Origin: Pagrus major | Lineage: Eukaryota > Chordata > Actinopteri > Spariformes > Sparidae | Direction: 5' to 3' | NCBI RefSeq assembly: GCF_040436345.1 | Contig: NC_133216.1 | Coordinates: 16,857,610-16,921,609 of the forward strand | Length of the DNA: 64,000 bases | Shown: piece by piece, positions 41,701 to 52,001 of the stretch | Layout: each line of letters opens with the position of its first letter | Numbering within the stretch: the first letter of the stretch is position 1 | The notes under the pieces: model-generated | The model's input: the letters and a program-made list of their open reading frames with translations, nothing else | What the model was told of the DNA's origin: nothing | The model's database searches: none | Made by a program: the position numbers and the translations under genes

Positions 41701-43477
41701 AGTGAACTTGTGCAACTAAAGATGAATATTTTCTACGTTTAAACTAGATTTACAATAAATAAATAGTTGTTGGAATAATAACTGAAGAATGTATAAACCA
41801 TGAGTAAAAAAGTAAATAATAATATTTGATCATATTTTTACATTTTATGGAGTAAATCAGGGGAAGAACGTACATTTTATAGAATATCTGAATTATATTT
41901 TGAGAGATTCAAACTTGATTTAGTTTGTTAAATAAAATGCATCATGCACAGTGGGTTGAGTAGTTTATCACAGATGAATCATCTTCTGAGCCTGTTTTTT
42001 TAAAAAAAAATAAAAACTACAAAATTTAGTGAAAATTATTTCAACAAAATAATAGCTGATAATAACACTTTGACTTGCCAGCATGTGTGTACGATATGTG
42101 TTATATGTTGGAAACATATTTTCTTTGTTTATTTGTTTATTTCTGACTGTCTTATTTCTTTCTTTTGTATTTTAAATGTGTGCGCCAGCTGTGTGAAGTC
42201 AGTTGTCATTTCAGCTACATCTGTCTGGTCTGTGGTTTTTCTCTGATGTTTGCTGACCGTCAGCAGAGGGCAGCAGCAGACTGCATCTATGACTGCTCCC
42301 TCCTGAGGCTGAACCTGCATGAGTTTTGAAGTGTGGCCCTCTCCTCTGTGTCTTAATGAAGTCCTAGTTTGGAATAGAAAGTTTGCATTTGGACAGAGAC
42401 TTAAACAAATTAAATGAATGTTTAGCGATATGGGTTATGTGAAAAGAAACGAGTATATGTCAACATATATCAATATCAATATTTAGTACATTAATAAAAC
42501 ATATAACTTCAATGCTGTAATGATCTCATAACTATAGTGGTTAAACACATACGTAAAGATGCAATATGTAAGAATTTTAGTTTAAAACATTCACAAATTA
42601 ACTAAAATCATCATGTGTGAAAAAAATAACAGCGTTGATGTTATCTCAGACGTCTGTGTTTTGTGTTGTAGAGATATCTACTGAAGTTGGCATACTAACC
42701 AGCTAATCCTGGCCTGTCCTGTAGAGAATAGCTCAGGCCTCCAGAGGTGGACACTGACTGAGACCTGACCTCACACCTCTCTCGCTTCACACACATACCT
42801 TACAAATATACTTATATGATTGCTTTGTTATCAAAGTAGTTGCCAATTAGTATTCTGTCAATCAATTTCACCGATCAGCCACACGTTTACACCACCTAGT
42901 TAATATTGTGCAGGTTCCCCATGTGCATCCAACAAAGCATCTCTGACCTTTCAAGGCATGGTCATGCCTGTGCATGATAGATAATAGTTCAACAGTCATA
43001 AGGGACATTTACTTTAAGTACATCTTTCTTATTATAATTACAAACAAACTCTCTTTGTTTTCATGACTGAATAAACAAACTGACCTTAAAGGACAACACA
43101 ATTTTGTACTGTTTTACTTTGTTTATATTTGGCGGACCCTGCCACCTTTCTAGCTTCAAACAGTATTCTGGGGAGCTTATTTTCCTCCGAGAACAGCTTG
43201 GTAATTCAATTACGGAAAAAATAACTATTTCTGAATTTTTATTATTATTATTACCTTACCAATATTGTACCCTTCTGAGTTTCTGAATTTCTTTTCCAAA
43301 ACTACATAGGCCCCTTTAATCTGGCTTTTATACACTGATTAACACAAAAAACCCTTTAATGCCGAAGTGAAGGATCTCTTAAAGAAATGATTAAAGCCAA
43401 TTACAAATATAACATTAAAAAATACATGTTTGCATAAATATTCACCTCCTTTAATACCCAAATAATTACTGGTGCAA
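41701..43477. other. Spacer between ube4a and the fold-back element
   Basis: AT-rich sequence. About 42860-42970 (GATCAGCCACACG, then CACCACCTAGTTAATATTGTG) resembles a widespread teleost repeat that begins TGATCAGCCATAAC; its family is uncertain. MITE-like copy D follows. No gene is recognised. Confidence 0.55.
43040..43319 (+). mobile_element. MITE-like element, copy D (5'-truncated)
   Basis: Begins inside the family at the CAAACAAACTCTCTTTG block and ends at the inverted terminus CTACATAGGCCCCTTTAA. It carries GGCGGACCCTGCCACC, as in copies A and B. Confidence 0.7.
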
Positions 43478-43967
43478 GTGAAGAGGCTACGGAAAAAGAA
43501 CGGCGCAGATAAAAAAAGTAACCTGATGTTTCCATAATGTAGGCTAGTTGTCAACAGTTGATGAGGGTAGATGCTTTACCTTGCCACTTGTTGTTGTTGT
43601 TGTTGTTGTTATCGTTGTTGCAATGTGATTTTACACCGCTTTGATCTATAAATAAAGTCATAATTCAATATCCCTGTTTCAGTGATTTTATAACGAGGAT
43701 TAGGAAATCAATGCAGAAGAGAATGCAGGAGTGTTTCCACGTCACATTAGATAGCAATCATATAACACATACTGAGAAATTAGTAAGTGCTATCAGAGGT
43801 GGGTAATAACGATTTACATTTACTTCATTACATTTACTTAAGTAACTTTTTGGATAACTTGTACTTTTAAGAGCATAATTATGAATACAATAATGCAGTA
43901 TATATAAAACTGTAGGCTAACTGTAACGGATTGCCTTTACATTCTGCATAACATTCTCTGTGTTTGC

Positions 43968-44843
43968 CAGGTGCATGTACAGTGAATTTGGTCAATATCA
44001 CTCCTTGCAATAAGGACTTACAGGGTGCAGTCACTTTTTGGCAGGCCCTGCCGAAAAGTGACTGCACCCTGTAACTCTGGATTGGGAGGGGTTACATTCT
44101 CTGTCTTTTCAGCATTAATAGTAGAGGAAACCAGGTGCATGTACAGTGAATTTGGTCAATATCACTCCTTGCAATAAGGACTTACAGGGTGCAGTCACTT
44201 TTTGGCAGGCCCTGCCGAAAAGTGACTGCACCCTGTAACTCTGGATTGGGAGGGGTTACATTCTCTGACTTTTCAGCATTAATAGTAGAGGAAACCAGGT
44301 GCATGTACAGTGAATTTGGTCAATATCACTCCTTGCAATAAGGACTTACAGGGTGCAGTCACTTTTTGGCAGGCCCTGCCGAAAAGTGACTGCACCCTGT
44401 AACTCTGGATTGGGAGGGGTTACATTCTCTGTCTTTTCAGCATTAATAGTAGAGGAAACCAGGTGCATGTACAGTGAATTTGGTCAATATCACTCCTTGC
44501 AATAAGGACTTACAGGGTGCAGTCACTTTTTGGCAGGCCCTGCCGAAAAGTGACTGCACCCTGTAACTCTGGAGTGGGAGGGGTTACATTCTCTGTCTTT
44601 TCAGCATTAATAGTAGAGGAAACCAGGTGCATGTACAGTGAATTTGGTCAATATCACTCCTTGCAATAAGGACTTACAGGGTGCAGTCACTTTTTGGCAG
44701 GCCCTGCCGAAAAGTGACTGCACCCTGTAACTCTGGATTGGGAGGGGTTACATTCTCTGTCTTTTCAGCATTAATAGTAGAGGAAACCAGGTGCATGTAC
44801 AGTGAATTTGGTCAATATCTCTCCTTGCAATAAGGACTTACAG
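43968..44843 (+). repeat. 164-bp tandem array 1 (5 full units plus 56 bp)
   Basis: Units start (CAGGTGCATGTACAGTG) at 43968, 44132, 44296, 44460, 44624 and 44788, an exact 164-bp period with near-identical copies. Each full unit holds a 51-base palindrome, first at 44021-44071, with 25-base arms starting CAGGGTGCAGTCAC. The array stops abruptly at 44843, where a second copy of the left-arm sequence begins. Confidence 0.95.
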
Positions 44844-46220
44844 TTGCAATGTGATTTTACACCGCTTTGATCTATAAATAAAGTCATAATTCAATATCCC
44901 TGTTTCAGTGATTTTATAACGAGGATTAGGAAATCAATGCAGAAGAGAATGCAGGAGTGTTTCCACGTCACATTAGATAGCAATCATATAACACATACTG
45001 AGAAATTAGTAAGTGCTATCAGAGGTGGGTAATAACGATTTACATTTACTTCATTACATTTACTTAAGTAACTTTTTGGATAACTTGTACTTTTAAGAGC
45101 ATAATTATGAATACAATAATGCAGTATATATAAAACTGTAGGCTAACTGTAACGGATTGCCTTTACATTCTGCATAACATTCTCTGTGTTTGCCAGGTGC
45201 ATGTACAGTGAATTTGGTCAATATCACTCCTTGCAATAAGGACTTACAGGGTGCAGTCACTTTTTGGCAGGCCCTGCCGAAAAGTGACTACACCCTGTAA
45301 CTCTGGATTGGGAGGGGTTACATTCTCTGTCTTTTCAGCATTAATAGTAGAGGAAACCAGGTGCATGTACAGTGAATTTGGTCAATATCACTCCTTGCAA
45401 TAAGGACTTACAGGGTGCAGTCACTTTTTGGCAGGCCCTGCCGAAAAGTGACTGCACCCTGTAACTCTGGATTGGGAGGGTTTACATTCTCTGTCTTTTC
45501 AGCATTAATAGTAGAGGAAACCAGGTGCATGTACAGTGAATTTGGTCAATATCACTCCTTGCAATAAGGATTTACAGGGTGCAGTCACTTTTCGGCAGGC
45601 CCTGCCGAAAAGTGACTGCACCCTGTAACTCTGGATTGGGAGGGGTTACATTCTCTGACTTTTCAGCATTAATAGTAGAGGAAACCAGGTGCATGTACAG
45701 TGAATTTGGTCAATATCACTCCTTGCAATAAGGACTTACAGGGTGCAGTCACTTTTTGGCAGGCCCTGCCGAAAAGTGACTGCACCCTGTAACTCTGGAG
45801 TGGGAGGGGTTACATTCTCTGTCTTTTCAGCATTAATAGTAGAGGAAACCAGGTGCATGTACAGTGAATTTGGTCAATATCACTCCTTGCAATAAGGACT
45901 TACAGGGTGCAGTCACTTTTTGGCAGGCCCTGCCGAAAAGTGACTGCACCCTGTAACTCTGGAGTGGGAGGGGTTACATTCTCTGTCTTTTCAGCATTAA
46001 TAGTAGAGGAAACCAGGTGCATGTACAGTGAATTTGGTCAATATCACTCCTTGCAATAAGGACTTACAGGGTGCAGTCACTTTTTGGCAGGCCCTGCCGA
46101 AAAGTGACTGCACCCTGTAACTCTGGATTGGGAGGGGTTACATTCTCTGTCTTTTCAGCATTAATAGTAGAGGAAACCAGGTGCATGTACAGTGAATTTG
46201 GTCAATATCACTCCTTGCAA
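44844..46220 (+). repeat. Direct duplicate of 43618-44843 with array 2 (6 full units plus a partial)
   Basis: Sequence from 43618 (TTGCAATGTGATTTTACACC) recurs at 44844, an offset of 1226 bp. Array units start at 45194, 45358, 45522, 45686, 45850, 46014 and 46178. Array 2 has one more full unit than array 1. The copy starting at 45522 carries a fully perfect 25-base-arm palindrome (TTTTCGGC rather than TTTTTGGC). Confidence 0.95.
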
Positions 46221-46489
46221 GTCCTTATTGCAAGGAGTGATATTGACCAAATTCACTGTACATGCACCTGGCAAACACAGAGAATGTTATGCAGAATGTA
46301 AAGGCAATCCGTTACAGTTAGCCTACAGTTCTACATATACTGCATTATTGTATTCATAATTATGCTCTTAAAAGTACAAGTTATCCAAAAAGTTACTTAA
46401 GTAAATGTAATGAAGTAAATGTAAATCGTTATTACCCACCTCTGATAGCACTTACTAATTTCTCAGTATGTGTTATATGATTGCTATCT

Positions 46490-47720
46490 TTTTTTTTTTA
46501 TTAACTTTCTTTTATTGGAAGCAATTTCACAGGCAAAAACATGACAACGCAATGTGGCATAGCTGACTTCCATTCTGACCATTTTCCTTTACCTTTTTAT
46601 CCCTTTTTATCCCTCCCTCCCCAGAATTTTATCCCTCCCTCCCCAGAATACTTACAAAAAATACATACACAGAGCAAAAAAAAAAAAAAAAAAGGGGGGG
46701 GGGGGGCGGCTCAGTCATCACAATCAGGCAGAGATGTCAAGGATTCAATATGGGTTAAGAGAGGTCTCCAAGTCTTTTCAAATGAGTTTAAGGAGCCATT
46801 GAGGGAAAATCTAAGCTTTTCAAGTCTAATGGACAATAACAGCTCTTTCACCCACCTGTTGTGAGAAGGTGGTTGAACGTGTTTCCAATTAAGAAGTATG
46901 AGTCGCCTAGCAAACAGGGTGGTAAAGGCCATAACAGTCTGCATGACTTTTGTGGTGATAGGGTGCAAGGGGGTACCAAATAAGGCCAATAAAGGTTCAG
47001 GAGTGATAGTAATATTGTAAGCTATACTAATGGTTTTGAAAATTTCGGACCAGAATGTGGCAAGCGTGGGACAGAACCAGAACATATGGGAATGGTCAGC
47101 TGGAGATTGTTTGCACCTATTACATAAGTCAATTACATTAGGGTAAATACGGGATAGCCTCAAATTAGTGTAGTGAATCTTGTGCACAACTTTACACTGG
47201 AGAAGGCTGTGCCTCGCACATATTGAAGAGGAGTGAACCAACCGAAGGACTTGTTGCCAATAATCATCAGGTAACGTAATTCCGAGCTCTTGTTCCCAGG
47301 AAGCTTTGGGGCCGGACGCTGGGCTATCAATAGTAGAATTGATGAGACTATAGATGCTAGAAATTAGCTGACTTTTTTCAGGATCAAGAGCCAGTAAAGA
47401 GTCTACCAGAGTTTCCGGGGGACGGCTGGGGAATTTGGGGTTCTGATTCTGAATAAAATGTCTAATCTGAAAGAAGCCGAACAGATGGGAGTTAGGTAGG
47501 TCGAATTTCTTTGAGAGCTCAGAAAAGGACATAAAAATCCCTTGGTTATAAAGGTCCTTTAATTTAGTTATTCCTTTGTCAAACCAGGTCCGAAAGGTTA
47601 AATCAGAGCAAGAGGGTAGAAACAGGTGGTTGTTTACAGTGGGGGAGAGGGCCGAGGCCCTATGGAGGCCTAGACTTTTCCTAATTTGAATCCAGATTTT
47701 AACAGAGTTAATTTATGATT
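46490..47720 (-). mobile_element. 5'-truncated L1-type LINE inserted in the fold-back right arm
   Basis: The low end is a poly-T run, the antisense of a poly-A tail. The insertion is flanked by a 13-bp target duplication ATGATTGCTATCT (46477-46489 and 47721-47733) that is single in the matching left arm. Its minus-strand ORF (46711-47532, extended further by an upstream in-frame segment) reads LLQCKVVHKIHYTNLRLSRI, then CNRCKQSPADHSHMFWFCPT. That is the C-terminal region of fish L1 ORF2, beyond the reverse transcriptase. No endonuclease or RT core remains. Confidence 0.9.
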
Positions 47721-48181
47721 ATGATTGCTATCTAATGTGACGTGGAAACACTCCTGCATTCTCTTCTGCATTGATTTCCTAATCCTCGTTATAAAATCAC
47801 TGAAACAGGGATATTGAATTATGACTTTATTTATAGATCAAAGCGGTGTAAAATCACATTGCAACAACGATAACAACAACAACAACAACAATAAAAGTGG
47901 CAAGGTAAAGCATCTACCCTCATCAATTGTTGACAGCTAGCCTACATTATGGAAACATCAGGTTACTTTTTTTATCTGCGCCGTTCTTTTTCCGTAGCCT
48001 CTTCACGTGGGCTACAGGACTGCACAGTAAAAAAAAACATTTCTCTCGGTGCTGCGTCTGCCAGCTGACCCGTAGTAGACCTACGCCCACTTCCTCTGAA
48101 CTGATGCGCGTTCCCATCGGGGGCAGTCGTTTTTCGGCAAGCAGTCTCTTCTCGGCACTACAACTGCAAACATCCCAAGCG

Positions 48182-48195
48182 GTTGCCATAGCAAT
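48182..48195 (+). promoter_or_regulatory. RFX X-box-like motif
   Basis: GTTGCCATAGCAAT matches the RFX X-box consensus (GTYNCC AT RGNAAC) except for the last base. RFX factors drive genes of motile and sensory cilia. It lies 552 bp before the downstream ATG. Confidence 0.6.
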
Positions 48196-48473
48196 GGTAA
48201 GTGACAGGGACATTGCATTAAAACCTGGACACAGGTTTTAAGCCAAAATGGCTCGACTTCCCCGAGACAAAAATCTGATTTAAAAAAATAATAATACCAG
48301 AATCGGACGTATTGGGGCCCATACAGCGTGCGCACGAGAGGCTTCCACCGACCGAGCCGGCTAACTTCCGGTTTAGCTCCTGGCTAATAAGCAGGCTGTT
48401 GGACTACAACTTAAGGAAGTGGCGAGATAGAATCGCGCATGCGCAGTGCGCCGTGACCGTCCACATTCGGTTT

Positions 48474-48540
48474 TGCTTTGATCTTTGTCAAAGTTTTGAT
48501 CTTTGTCAATGCTTTGATCTTTGTCAATGCTTTGATATAA
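48474..48540. repeat. 18-bp minisatellite, about 3.5 copies
   Basis: The unit GCTTTGATCTTTGTCAAT recurs, the first copy having AAAG in place of AATG. It lies between the X-box and the WD40 gene start. Confidence 0.85.
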
Positions 48541-48746
48541 AGTGTTGTTTTATTGTATTTGTTTTGAGTTCTCTCATTTCAACAAACCTCACAGAAACTA
48601 GAACACTGGTTAACTAACATCCTCCGTCCTAAGACAATCGATTTTGGCTCTTAGATCAATAGATCGATAGATCGACAGACAGACAGACAGATAACGTTAT
48701 TAATCCTCAAAGGGTAATTACGTTAATTGGTGATAGCAAGGTAAAA

Positions 48747-51700
48747 ATGGAAAGACACGCAGATATGGAGGACAACAGCCCTAAGAAGACAGAAAAAATG
48801 TTCGCTGCACAGGATATCCCAGAGATTGTGAGATTATTTAAAGAGGCAGGTGCTGATGATGGCAAAGGTTTGGACAAGCAGGAATTTTGTGAAGTAATGA
48901 AGAAAATATACAGTTCAGTGAGTGAAGACGAACTCACTGCGCTTCACACACAGATTGACTCACACTGTAGTGGAACTGTGGACCTGAACGAGCTGATGGC
49001 CTTCCGGCTGAGTAAGATCAAGGCATATGAGGCTATGGACTATATACATCACTCCTTTCCAAAATCTTTCCAAAGGGTACCTGAGGATTGTCAGGTACCA
49101 ATCATTGGTATGGTATTTTTGCCCTTGAAGGATGATATGGAAAAACACTACAGTGCTGACTTTCGAGATGTCATCAGGCCCTACAAGCAAGGTCAATACC
49201 TCTCCCTGACCTCAAACGGCACCCTCAGCATCTGGACTGACAAGTTTGAGATCTCACGCAAACTATCATTATGGGAAAGGGAAAATACACTTCCTTTATC
49301 ACACATCAAGAAAATGTATGTTGTTGATATGGTTTACATCAGAGAACTACAACAGCTGGTCATCTCCAATTTCACCAGGGAGCTGTTTTTCTATAACTGC
49401 CGTTTTCTCCCTTCACATATTGATATGAAACACTCTTTAGTAGTAGAAGACGGCAAAGTGAGTGCTATGAACTACTGGTCCAATGGCACTAGAGCAGTGT
49501 TTTCCATTGGTGATGTAGCAGGATTTCTGACCGTGTTTATCTCCCACAGGGTAAAGAAAAATGACCTCTTCTGCAAGGAGGCATTCGAGAAAGTCTCTCT
49601 GCAGAAATATCCAACAGTTTATGTTTCAGCCCTGCTAAACCAAAACTCAAGCGACTTCCAGTGCATAAAAATCCCCACCTTTAATGATGCTTGCAGTCAG
49701 ATCCGATACTTTCCGTCACTTCACTCAATTGCCGTCTGCGGTAAATCATTCAAGAGAATGGTCGTCGCTGCTCTACCCCAGCCAACTGGAACCGAAGTTT
49801 TTACAGAAATCTTCGTGAGCGAGGGTATTTATGATTTTTTCACCTGTGTTGAATACGCCCCTGCAGCTAAACAACTGGTGACTGGTGGTACAGATGGCTC
49901 ATTGCGGGTGTGGTTTCCCAACCACACGGTATGCATAGAGTCGTTAAAAGGACATGTCAAACCCATTACCAACCTTATGTACAATACTAAAGACCAAATA
50001 GTCATCAGTTTGTCTGAGGACAAAAATGTACGTGTCTGGTCCGAGATTGGCTGGCTGTGTAGGCAAAGCATCCAGGTTGAGAACATTGGACAGTCCCCAA
50101 TCACTAGTATGTGTTATAACATACACAACAATGAGTTAGTCCTGGCTAACTCAGACATAACAAAATGCCTGGGAAAAGGAACAGATGTTTTTCATGAATC
50201 GTTAACATCCCATGAAAAGCCCCTGTGCTGTGCTCTCTATCACAGCTTTTTCAAACGGGTCATCTCTTGTTGCCAAAACGGTGTGGTGACAGTGTGGGAT
50301 ATCTTAACTGGAAATGCTGTCATGCAGTTCAAAGTCATTCCAAAAAACACTAATGGGCGCACATTCATGTCATTTGATGGACAGCAGCAAAGCCTCATCA
50401 CAGTTTTCCAGGATGGGAAAGTGAGACGGTGGAACTTCAGCAATGGAAAAAAGCTGTCGGTTCACCCTGTTACCGTGCAAAAGTACGTAACAGCTATTGT
50501 CTGCATAAAAGATAGGGTGTTTGTGTCTGGAAGGGACTCCAAGGTCATTTTTGACCTGGATATTGAAGGATTTGACAACAGATTTTTGAAACATTCTTAC
50601 CTAAATGACATTTCCTCAATGGATGTGCACGGAGATAGGCTGATTACCACCTCTCGCAGTGGAAATATCATTATCTGGGATCACAACAATGGCAATGTTC
50701 TCTGTTGGATTGATGCCAGTATGAGCCCTCGAACACGAATGGCAGGTGAAAGCGCTCAAGGCCTTATAGGGATTCTGCCTGTCCAGAACAGTCAAAGTAT
50801 ATGTAAGGGCACTGGGACAAAGTCGACTGGGAATGATGTGACTATCGGAACTCTTATTATATGTCTCAAGACCAGGGAGGCCAAGGCTGACACAGCCACA
50901 CTGCTGACCTCTGATGATGGCTACATCTATGCCTGGTCTGTTGTTTGCACAGGTGGTTTGTTAGGAAAGTTCAGGGCAGTGAAGGATGATGCAGCAGTCA
51001 TTACAACCATGTCAACTGATGTCAACGAACAGATACTATTGACTGGGGATAGTACCGGAAGGATCTGTCTGTGGGACATTCAGAGATTTGGGTTTAAAAG
51101 ACAGGCAGGCAATGGGCCTTTTGAGGACAGAAGTGGATGGCGTGTGTCATTGTGTCCCCCACCCCTGTTAGAGTCCTGGCAATCTCACCCCACAGCAGTG
51201 GTGAGTGTTGAATGTGACCCTGCCTGTAACAACATAATTACTGCGGGGTTGGACTGCAATGTACGTCGATGGACAAATAAAGGCATCTGCATAGGTGTCT
51301 TTGGGAAAGATGATATGCAACTCTGCCCTGAGGAGGATTCGGACGAGGAGCATGAAGAAAGCGAACATGATTTCAAAAAGATACGCTTTTCACCAATACC
51401 AGACTATGATGAATTTATTGACAGCATTCGGCCTCAGAAATATAGTACTGGTGCGTTATTTGCCAAATGTAATGAAGCAAACATGATTAGGTCAGAACTT
51501 GACAAAGACATAGACAGGAACAAGAGTAAATATGTGCCACCTGCACAAAAGACGTCCCGCAGGAGACGTGTGACTCACCTGGGACAAAGCTCTGCTCTGG
51601 CAGTATCTCCAGACAGTACTAAATATGGATGTGTACTCCAGAAAAACATATTAGAAGACAATGTCCTCATACCATGTCCACCAGAAAGCCTGCCAGACAG

Positions 51701-52001
51701 AGAAGGGTCTAACCGAATACCACCGCATTTATACAAGCCATACACACAACATTCGACCCACTTAAAGCCACATCCACCTCAAACCCAGCTTACCACAGAC
51801 CACAATCATGCTGCGAAGAGATCACCTGACATGCAGCACAGGTCTGATCACACATCGAAGCATGTACACTTACCACCCATCACTGATAGGGTTCAGCTCA
51901 TAGGGCAGCAGACCCAGTTTAAGCCACATCCACCTGATACCCCACCCACCACAGGCCACACAACAAAGACTTCAGCAAGTTTCAGGCAGGGAAGGCATTA
52001 A
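48747..52001 (+). CDS. Single-exon EF-hand/WD40-repeat protein (WDR49/WDR64/WDY-like), 1084 aa
   Basis: Residues about 20-95 look like a degenerate EF-hand pair; the second loop reads DSHCSGTVDLNELM. From about 150 to 850 there are successive WD40 blades, for example GGTDGSLRVWF, SLSEDKNVRVWSEIGW, CCQNGVVTVWDI, TTSRSGNIIIWDH, LTGDSTGRICLWDI and AGLDCNVRRWTNKGIC. An acidic patch (EEDSDEEHEESEHD) and a Pro/His-rich, Lys-poor tail follow. EF-hand plus two WD40 propellers is the layout of WDR49, WDR64 and the 'WD repeat on Y chromosome' family, linked to cilia and testis. The frame is open for 3.25 kb with no intron, although the vertebrate relatives I know have many exons. Start chosen: first in-frame Met before the EF-hand region; a second Met lies six residues on. 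Which paralogue this is remains uncertain. Confidence 0.88.
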   Translation: MERHADMEDNSPKKTEKMFAAQDIPEIVRLFKEAGADDGKGLDKQEFCEVMKKIYSSVSEDELTALHTQIDSHCSGTVDLNELMAFRLSKIKAYEAMDYIHHSFPKSFQRVPEDCQVPIIGMVFLPLKDDMEKHYSADFRDVIRPYKQGQYLSLTSNGTLSIWTDKFEISRKLSLWERENTLPLSHIKKMYVVDMVYIRELQQLVISNFTRELFFYNCRFLPSHIDMKHSLVVEDGKVSAMNYWSNGTRAVFSIGDVAGFLTVFISHRVKKNDLFCKEAFEKVSLQKYPTVYVSALLNQNSSDFQCIKIPTFNDACSQIRYFPSLHSIAVCGKSFKRMVVAALPQPTGTEVFTEIFVSEGIYDFFTCVEYAPAAKQLVTGGTDGSLRVWFPNHTVCIESLKGHVKPITNLMYNTKDQIVISLSEDKNVRVWSEIGWLCRQSIQVENIGQSPITSMCYNIHNNELVLANSDITKCLGKGTDVFHESLTSHEKPLCCALYHSFFKRVISCCQNGVVTVWDILTGNAVMQFKVIPKNTNGRTFMSFDGQQQSLITVFQDGKVRRWNFSNGKKLSVHPVTVQKYVTAIVCIKDRVFVSGRDSKVIFDLDIEGFDNRFLKHSYLNDISSMDVHGDRLITTSRSGNIIIWDHNNGNVLCWIDASMSPRTRMAGESAQGLIGILPVQNSQSICKGTGTKSTGNDVTIGTLIICLKTREAKADTATLLTSDDGYIYAWSVVCTGGLLGKFRAVKDDAAVITTMSTDVNEQILLTGDSTGRICLWDIQRFGFKRQAGNGPFEDRSGWRVSLCPPPLLESWQSHPTAVVSVECDPACNNIITAGLDCNVRRWTNKGICIGVFGKDDMQLCPEEDSDEEHEESEHDFKKIRFSPIPDYDEFIDSIRPQKYSTGALFAKCNEANMIRSELDKDIDRNKSKYVPPAQKTSRRRRVTHLGQSSALAVSPDSTKYGCVLQKNILEDNVLIPCPPESLPDREGSNRIPPHLYKPYTQHSTHLKPHPPQTQLTTDHNHAAKRSPDMQHRSDHTSKHVHLPPITDRVQLIGQQTQFKPHPPDTPPTTGHTTKTSASFRQGRH

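Follow-up and report, generated by a model that had tools for sequence, protein, structure and literature searches.

Fold-back transposons often have no known mover. Drosophila FB is a fold-back element with internal repeats, a Mutator-type mover and a longer target duplication; the duplications of Mutator and P elements exceed 4 bp, that of Galileo differs from 4 bp in length, hAT elements duplicate 8 bp, and Helitrons have neither inverted repeats nor a target duplication. According to the passages of the papers cited here, Galileo, a member of the P superfamily, has long, dynamic arms and tandem repeats with secondary transposase binding sites (PMC3573991), and Tetris of Drosophila virilis has long arms in which an outer domain is combined with ~220-bp tandem repeats that contain a 37-bp stretch of that domain (PMC4079207). 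Ginger1 elements have a highly specific 4-bp target duplication (CCGG in 75%, CCGT/ACGG in 24%), TGTNR ends and, in the 2010 set, terminal inverted repeats of 40-270 bp (Bao et al. 2010, PMC2836005), and Ginger1 relics have been reported in frog, alligator, turtle and coelacanth (PMC9004415). Here, we analysed a stretch of 64,000 nucleotides from Pagrus major (NCBI RefSeq assembly GCF_040436345.1, contig NC_133216.1, positions 16,857,610 to 16,921,609), referred to below as the window, in which an earlier note had described a 4.5-kb fold-back element with near-identical arms. We assign this structure, with a probability of roughly 0.83, to a decayed member of a young family of non-autonomous fold-back DNA transposons, whose inverted arms consist of an outer tip (T), an arm segment (A) and a tandemly repeated unit (U), and which shows Ginger1-type insertion by a mover acting in trans.

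Positions 43400-44100 of the window were used as a query against the window's own genome (786 Mb, 25 contigs), with the best candidates scored, and at least 838 matches to this arm-plus-array query were found, spread over many contigs. The structure of copies was read in 36 matching regions, and the parts of the family proved to be T (~152 bp), A (492 bp) and U (164 bp, in 0 to ~40 copies). Most long matches start at query base 76, which is position 43475 of the window, yet the copies continue outward: the inner end of T precedes 49 of 52 A starts at the 36 other loci, and T reaches about 150 bp further out. The sequence GTGAAGAGGCTACGG, previously proposed as the outer end, is thus internal; the existence of a family had been tied to other copies ending there, and it is literally the case that nearly all copies read do not, but the point lies inside the element. 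A 27-nt tip pattern with up to 3 mismatches recovered at least 89 tips in the genome (49 on the plus and 40 on the minus strand; 0 with a reversed-pattern control), among which 18 convergent tip pairs within 10 kb were picked out by eye. Since L043 and L047/48 have both flanks in common and were counted once, these pairs represent 17 insertions, and a shorter pattern (116 matches, 4 with the reversed control) supplied 7 further two-tip copies among the matches listed, giving 24 two-tip insertions in total. With its dispersed matches and tips, its long inverted arms and its internal tandem repeats, the element is multicopy and mobile, and the suggestion of a non-autonomous fold-back family made in the earlier note was borne out.

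The content of the copies was assessed by lenient BLAST, with spans set by hand. Of the 19 two-armed or two-tipped loci, 18 had no more than 34 bases left uncovered by T, A or U; the 19th is the window, whose extra content is only a 1.23-kb fragment of a long interspersed nuclear element (LINE), and none of the 18 others had room for a gene. A tip on C21 (L075, then L099) was considered as an autonomous copy and rejected, because it belongs to a copy of the family into which a different fold-back element is nested; this second element (L099, 3661-4227 and 7798-8416) has arms of 31-bp tandem repeats (GGTGCCACTGTTTGGTGGA...) with about 3.6 kb between them. L104 was considered as a divergent tip and was also rejected, as it is no better than the 4 chance matches of the reversed-pattern control. 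A 3.3-kb stretch that spans the element and its flanks on either side is shared by L043 (C4) and L100 (C1) at ~98-99%, as a duplication or an assembly duplicate.

The mean distance from the consensus was 0.78% among 53 A segments; A pairs from different copies differed by 1.53% on average (1,355 pairs) and left/right pairs within one copy by 0.41-3.51%, with the arms drawn from best matches, so that the means are biased low. A tree of 48 A rows was star-like, and same-copy arms were well-supported sisters only in L018 and L036. Judged from these sequences, the family is young and recently spread and not a one-off palindrome, and we infer that the two-armed form probably existed prior to most of the spread. 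The low divergence suggests recent Ginger1-type activity in this genome.

The ends of the element are TGTAG...CTACA, and TGTAG adjoins the flank at nearly all tips read, a few of which read TGCAG, TGTCG, TGTGG, CGTAG or TGGAG. Flanking target duplications, recommended as a check in the earlier note, are only partly visible in the insertions themselves, as the flanking 4-mers were identical in just 9 of 24:

CCGG on both sides: L009, L025, L030, L044, L045/46, L053/54, L057/58
CCGT on both sides, not self-complementary: L059/60
GTGG on both sides, not self-complementary: L011
CAGG/CCTG: L019, L027, L039, L040, L055/56, L068/106
CCGG/CCTG: L028, L043, L089/042, L108/074
CAGG/GGTG: L012, L049/50
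ACTC/CCTC: L051/52
GGGG/CCGG: L107/070
Damaged left tip, flanking 4-mers counted as differing: L034

Because CCGG equals its own reverse complement, empty sites were sought with the joined flanks, and repeat families spanning the junctions of L027, L043, L053 and L055 allowed 40 places to be read. All 40 empty copies hold a single 4-mer between the flanks where the insertion has two, showing that a 4-bp target was duplicated at these four sites. CCGG was found in 31 of the 40 (L027, 7/10; L043, 6/10; L053, 7/8; L055, 11/12), and the others read CAGG (3), GCGG (1), CTGG (2), CCAG (2) or CCGT (1). The 4-bp target at the four sites was most likely CCGG on the reading of these copies, which show it for 3 of the 15 non-identical insertions (L027, L043 and L055). 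The empty sites also rejected the possibility that a boundary CMGG is part of the element and was inserted without duplication, by blunt joining between CM and KG, and they make the assignment of a mover testable. In two copies, L009 and L044, the host flanks are inverted with respect to each other, with CCGG in the middle and the element at the centre; this is clear over ~230 bp in L044 and weaker, seen by eye only, in L009.

The CCGG duplications and TGTNR ends match Ginger1, which suggests what moves the element, and the target specificity thus points to a mover for a fold-back family. As far as Ginger1 is described in the cited passages, its TGTNR ends, its 4-bp CCGG or CCGT duplication and its terminal inverted repeats were all found here, and the former statement that the structure matches no nameable family is superseded, though no transposase was found. 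Since the Gypsy-integrase-like transposase of Ginger1 is missing and the arms exceed 40-270 bp, we claim Ginger1-type insertion and not plain membership of Ginger1; the interior here holds only palindrome-bearing tandem repeats. Tetris resembles the family in that no transposase was found, repeat arrays expand and a tip-like stretch recurs in the repeats, but its sequence and host are different and its repeats are not called palindromic in the passages of PMC4079207. Galileo, as described in PMC3573991, is similar in its long, dynamic arms and tandem repeats and differs in its superfamily. The architecture with internal repeats is also that of FB. A Helitron was rejected because inverted repeats and 4-bp duplications are present. 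Exact pattern scans for arm or unit in viral and genome contig collections, from which the window's own genome was perhaps left out, gave no match, as did a literature search by four sequence motifs, and a term search of PMC12863088 yielded nothing useful; no fold-back Ginger1 or fish fold-back was named in the titles and abstract openings searched (fold-back, fish, Ginger1, duplication-less transposons), which is no proof of absence.

Several observations weigh against the assignment. T plus A amounts to ~650 bp, compared with 40-270 bp for the terminal repeats of Ginger1 in the passages cited, and no transposase or autonomous copy was found among the family copies examined. Flanking 4-mers were not identical in 15 of 24 two-tip insertions, 7 of the 9 identical pairs are the self-complementary CCGG and are thus weak evidence of duplication, and the ACTG duplication of the window copy is tentative. 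The empty sites are paralogous repeat copies in the same genome, not orthologous alleles; 3 of the 40 themselves read CAGG, and at L027 the base before the left 4-mer is A in the insertion and G in the empty copies. L012 and L049 (CAGG/GGTG) and L107/L070 (GGGG/CCGG) fit no version of the 4-bp model well. The outward 4-mer at 95 tips, a count that leaves out four tips with identical flanks, was CCGG at 47, other at 14, CCTG at 0 and CAGG at as many as 34, although most empty sites read CCGG. In addition, resolution in the A tree is poor, with 32 of its 44 inner branches drawn open. The 7 copies added with the shorter pattern, 6 of which had no identical 4-mers, slightly lowered our confidence. 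A rival reading is a fold-back family of another superfamily, of Mutator or P type as in FB and Galileo, that had converged on CCGG, and Galileo and Tetris, in the passages cited, typically have long arms and repeats inside them; we consider this unlikely, as a 4-bp CCGG duplication and TGTNR ends are two Ginger1 features in the description of Bao et al., and Mutator and P elements make duplications longer than 4 bp.

The window copy was delimited by a repeat search and by comparison with the family, and consists of the following features:

43468 to 43471, no strand: candidate left 4-bp target duplication ACTG, then a 3-bp remnant GTG; the 4 letters match 48163-48166 (tentative)
43475 to 43966, plus strand: left arm, segment A (1-492), with the outer tip T missing
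43794 to 43811, plus strand: sequence which we take to be like a hAT end, internal to A (around A 320), within A common to other copies
43967 to 44843, plus strand: first U array, 164-bp unit, 5.3 copies
44018 to 44074, no strand: 57-nt near-perfect palindrome in one U, with the tip-like motif TGCCGAAAANNGACTGC on both strands
44843 to 45192, plus strand: partial second A (143-492), which arose by a 1,226-bp tandem duplication (43617-44842 / 44843-46068)
45193 to 46220, plus strand: second U array, 6.3 copies
46213 to 46489, minus strand: right arm, inner part, U 1-59 and A 275-492, inverted
46490 to 47719, minus strand: LINE 3' fragment interrupting the right arm, with the two copies of its target duplication at 46476-46489 / 47720-47733
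47720 to 48009, minus strand: right arm, outer part, A 1-288 inverted, starting with the LINE's second target-duplication copy
48010 to 48162, minus strand: outer tip T, true end TGTAGTGCCGAGAAGAGACTGC, reading ...GGCACTACA on the plus strand
48163 to 48166, no strand: candidate right 4-bp target duplication ACTG (tentative)

The inverted arms (43475-44025 and 46213-48009) are complementary at 97-99% in three paired blocks (43475-43589/47895-48009, 43588-43762/47720-47894 and 43749-44025/46213-46489), and the left and right A differ by 1.23% over 489 aligned columns. The near-identical arms of the earlier note therefore stand, and its whole 4.5-kb element does not, this being a broken copy that lacks the left T while the right arm extends outward to 48162. 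The interior is not unique sequence, since it is made up of the two U arrays; these are enclosed by the 1,226-bp direct tandem duplication, whose halves align gapless and differ at 8 of 1,226 positions. The 4.5-kb length includes a later insertion, because the right arm is split by 1,230 bp (46490-47719) with a 14-bp duplication, TATGATTGCTATCT, on both sides. A T-run at the left edge of this insert and an antisense open frame of 333 codons (46711-47712), whose zf-RVT match of 22.1 bits is under the curated cut-off of 27.5, accompany it, and we read the insert as a LINE 3' fragment that arrived after the palindrome existed. The right end is of the TGTAG type and is adjoined by ACTG; on the left, ...ATTACTG is followed by GTG and then by A. 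These flanks would tentatively fit an ACTG duplication plus loss of the left tip, on the basis of four letters. Rfam at its gathering threshold over 43000-49000 and a tRNA search gave no match. An assembly artefact as the source of the array-rich and one-armed copies, parts of the window among them, is less probable still than another superfamily: one array end in L021 runs into poly-C/poly-A, L043 and L100 are the near-duplicates described above, and strong hairpins in arrays are difficult to sequence, but the window arms differ, a LINE flanked by a 14-bp duplication of its own is present in one of them, and the two window arrays contain different unit variants.

Units of both window arrays carry the 57-nt palindrome, and the fold of U as single-stranded DNA gave z = -7.43. 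The tip and U have TGCCGAAAANNGACTGCNCCC in common (18 of 21 letters), a score reached by 3 of 2000 shuffles. Since Galileo and Tetris also have repeats with secondary tip-like or binding sites, U may by analogy have begun as a copied binding site. Where one-armed copies end was examined in 14 copies with an array end in the stretch read, with positions entered by hand and with L012, L016, L024, L039 and L040 excluded because a second tip or arm is kept. Nine of these array-side ends lie inside the palindrome (p 0.023), and with a margin of 10 nt around it the number is 13 (47% expected, p 4e-4). In the window copy, the base of the U palindrome is the site of both the inner junction and the junction of the 1,226-bp duplication. 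We infer breakage of the palindromes or a block to replication at them, leading to arm loss and array reshuffling, and the palindromes may also be cut as false ends by the transposase. The two window junctions would be expected if the whole structure were a one-off inverted duplication made at this locus by template switching at a palindrome without transposition, and template switching is a good account of the internal rearrangements; as an origin it is highly improbable, being refuted by the empty sites and by dispersed copies with the same inverted structure and tips at many sites on many contigs, and the 48-row tree, poorly resolved as it is, joins same-copy arms with good support for L018 and L036 only. 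The palindromic duplication that the earlier note had offered as an alternative is ruled out by the same dispersed copies. Least credible of all is a hAT-family element ending at the CAGAGGTGGGTAATAACG motifs inside the arms, which resemble hAT ends, since homology between copies runs ~320 bp of A and ~152 bp of T beyond the motif and T tips are flanked by duplications of 4 bp instead of the 8 bp made by hAT elements; the hAT-like sequence is, as had been noticed before, an internal piece of A and not a mobile end.

In the Ginger1-type fold-back family, the tip motif would be bound, and the element moved, by a Ginger1-like integrase-type transposase provided in trans. The U palindromes, in which a similar motif recurs, probably offer extra binding sites and also form break-prone hairpins, from which variable arrays and one-armed copies ending at a palindrome would arise. 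In the window copy, the left tip was lost and the 1,226-bp tandem duplication arose with its junction at the palindrome base, and the LINE entered the right arm later. The family illustrates how the end motif of a transposon can turn into a satellite of palindromes by which its host locus is rearranged.

The outward CAGG was found at 5 of the 8 ends of L027, L043, L053 and L055. A CAGG target could yield one outward CAGG, not CAGG on the left plus CCTG on the right, and CpG decay yields CTGG or CCAG, which were seen at some empty sites, not CAGG. We take the change from CCGG to CAGG to be linked to insertion, and it offers a concrete trace of how the ends are joined; our best guess is that a few donor bases are retained at the joint. 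More fully, and as a proposal that we regard as doubtful, a Ginger1-type integrase would move a gene-less element whose binding site became a hairpin satellite, and the last few nucleotides of the donor flank, AGG or CGG, could travel with it at each transposition and replace one of the two duplicated target copies. Such carry-over would explain why CAGG and CCGG, but never CCTG, were read outward at the 95 tips with empty sites that are mostly CCGG.

Beyond the right tip of the window copy, an unbroken 1,112-codon open frame that has Pfam matches of the WD40 type (48663-52001, plus strand), possibly an intron-less gene, starts at a distance of ~0.5 kb. Directly upstream of this frame, a short 18-bp tandem repeat, TGCTTTGATCTTTGTCAA, occupies 48474-48536.

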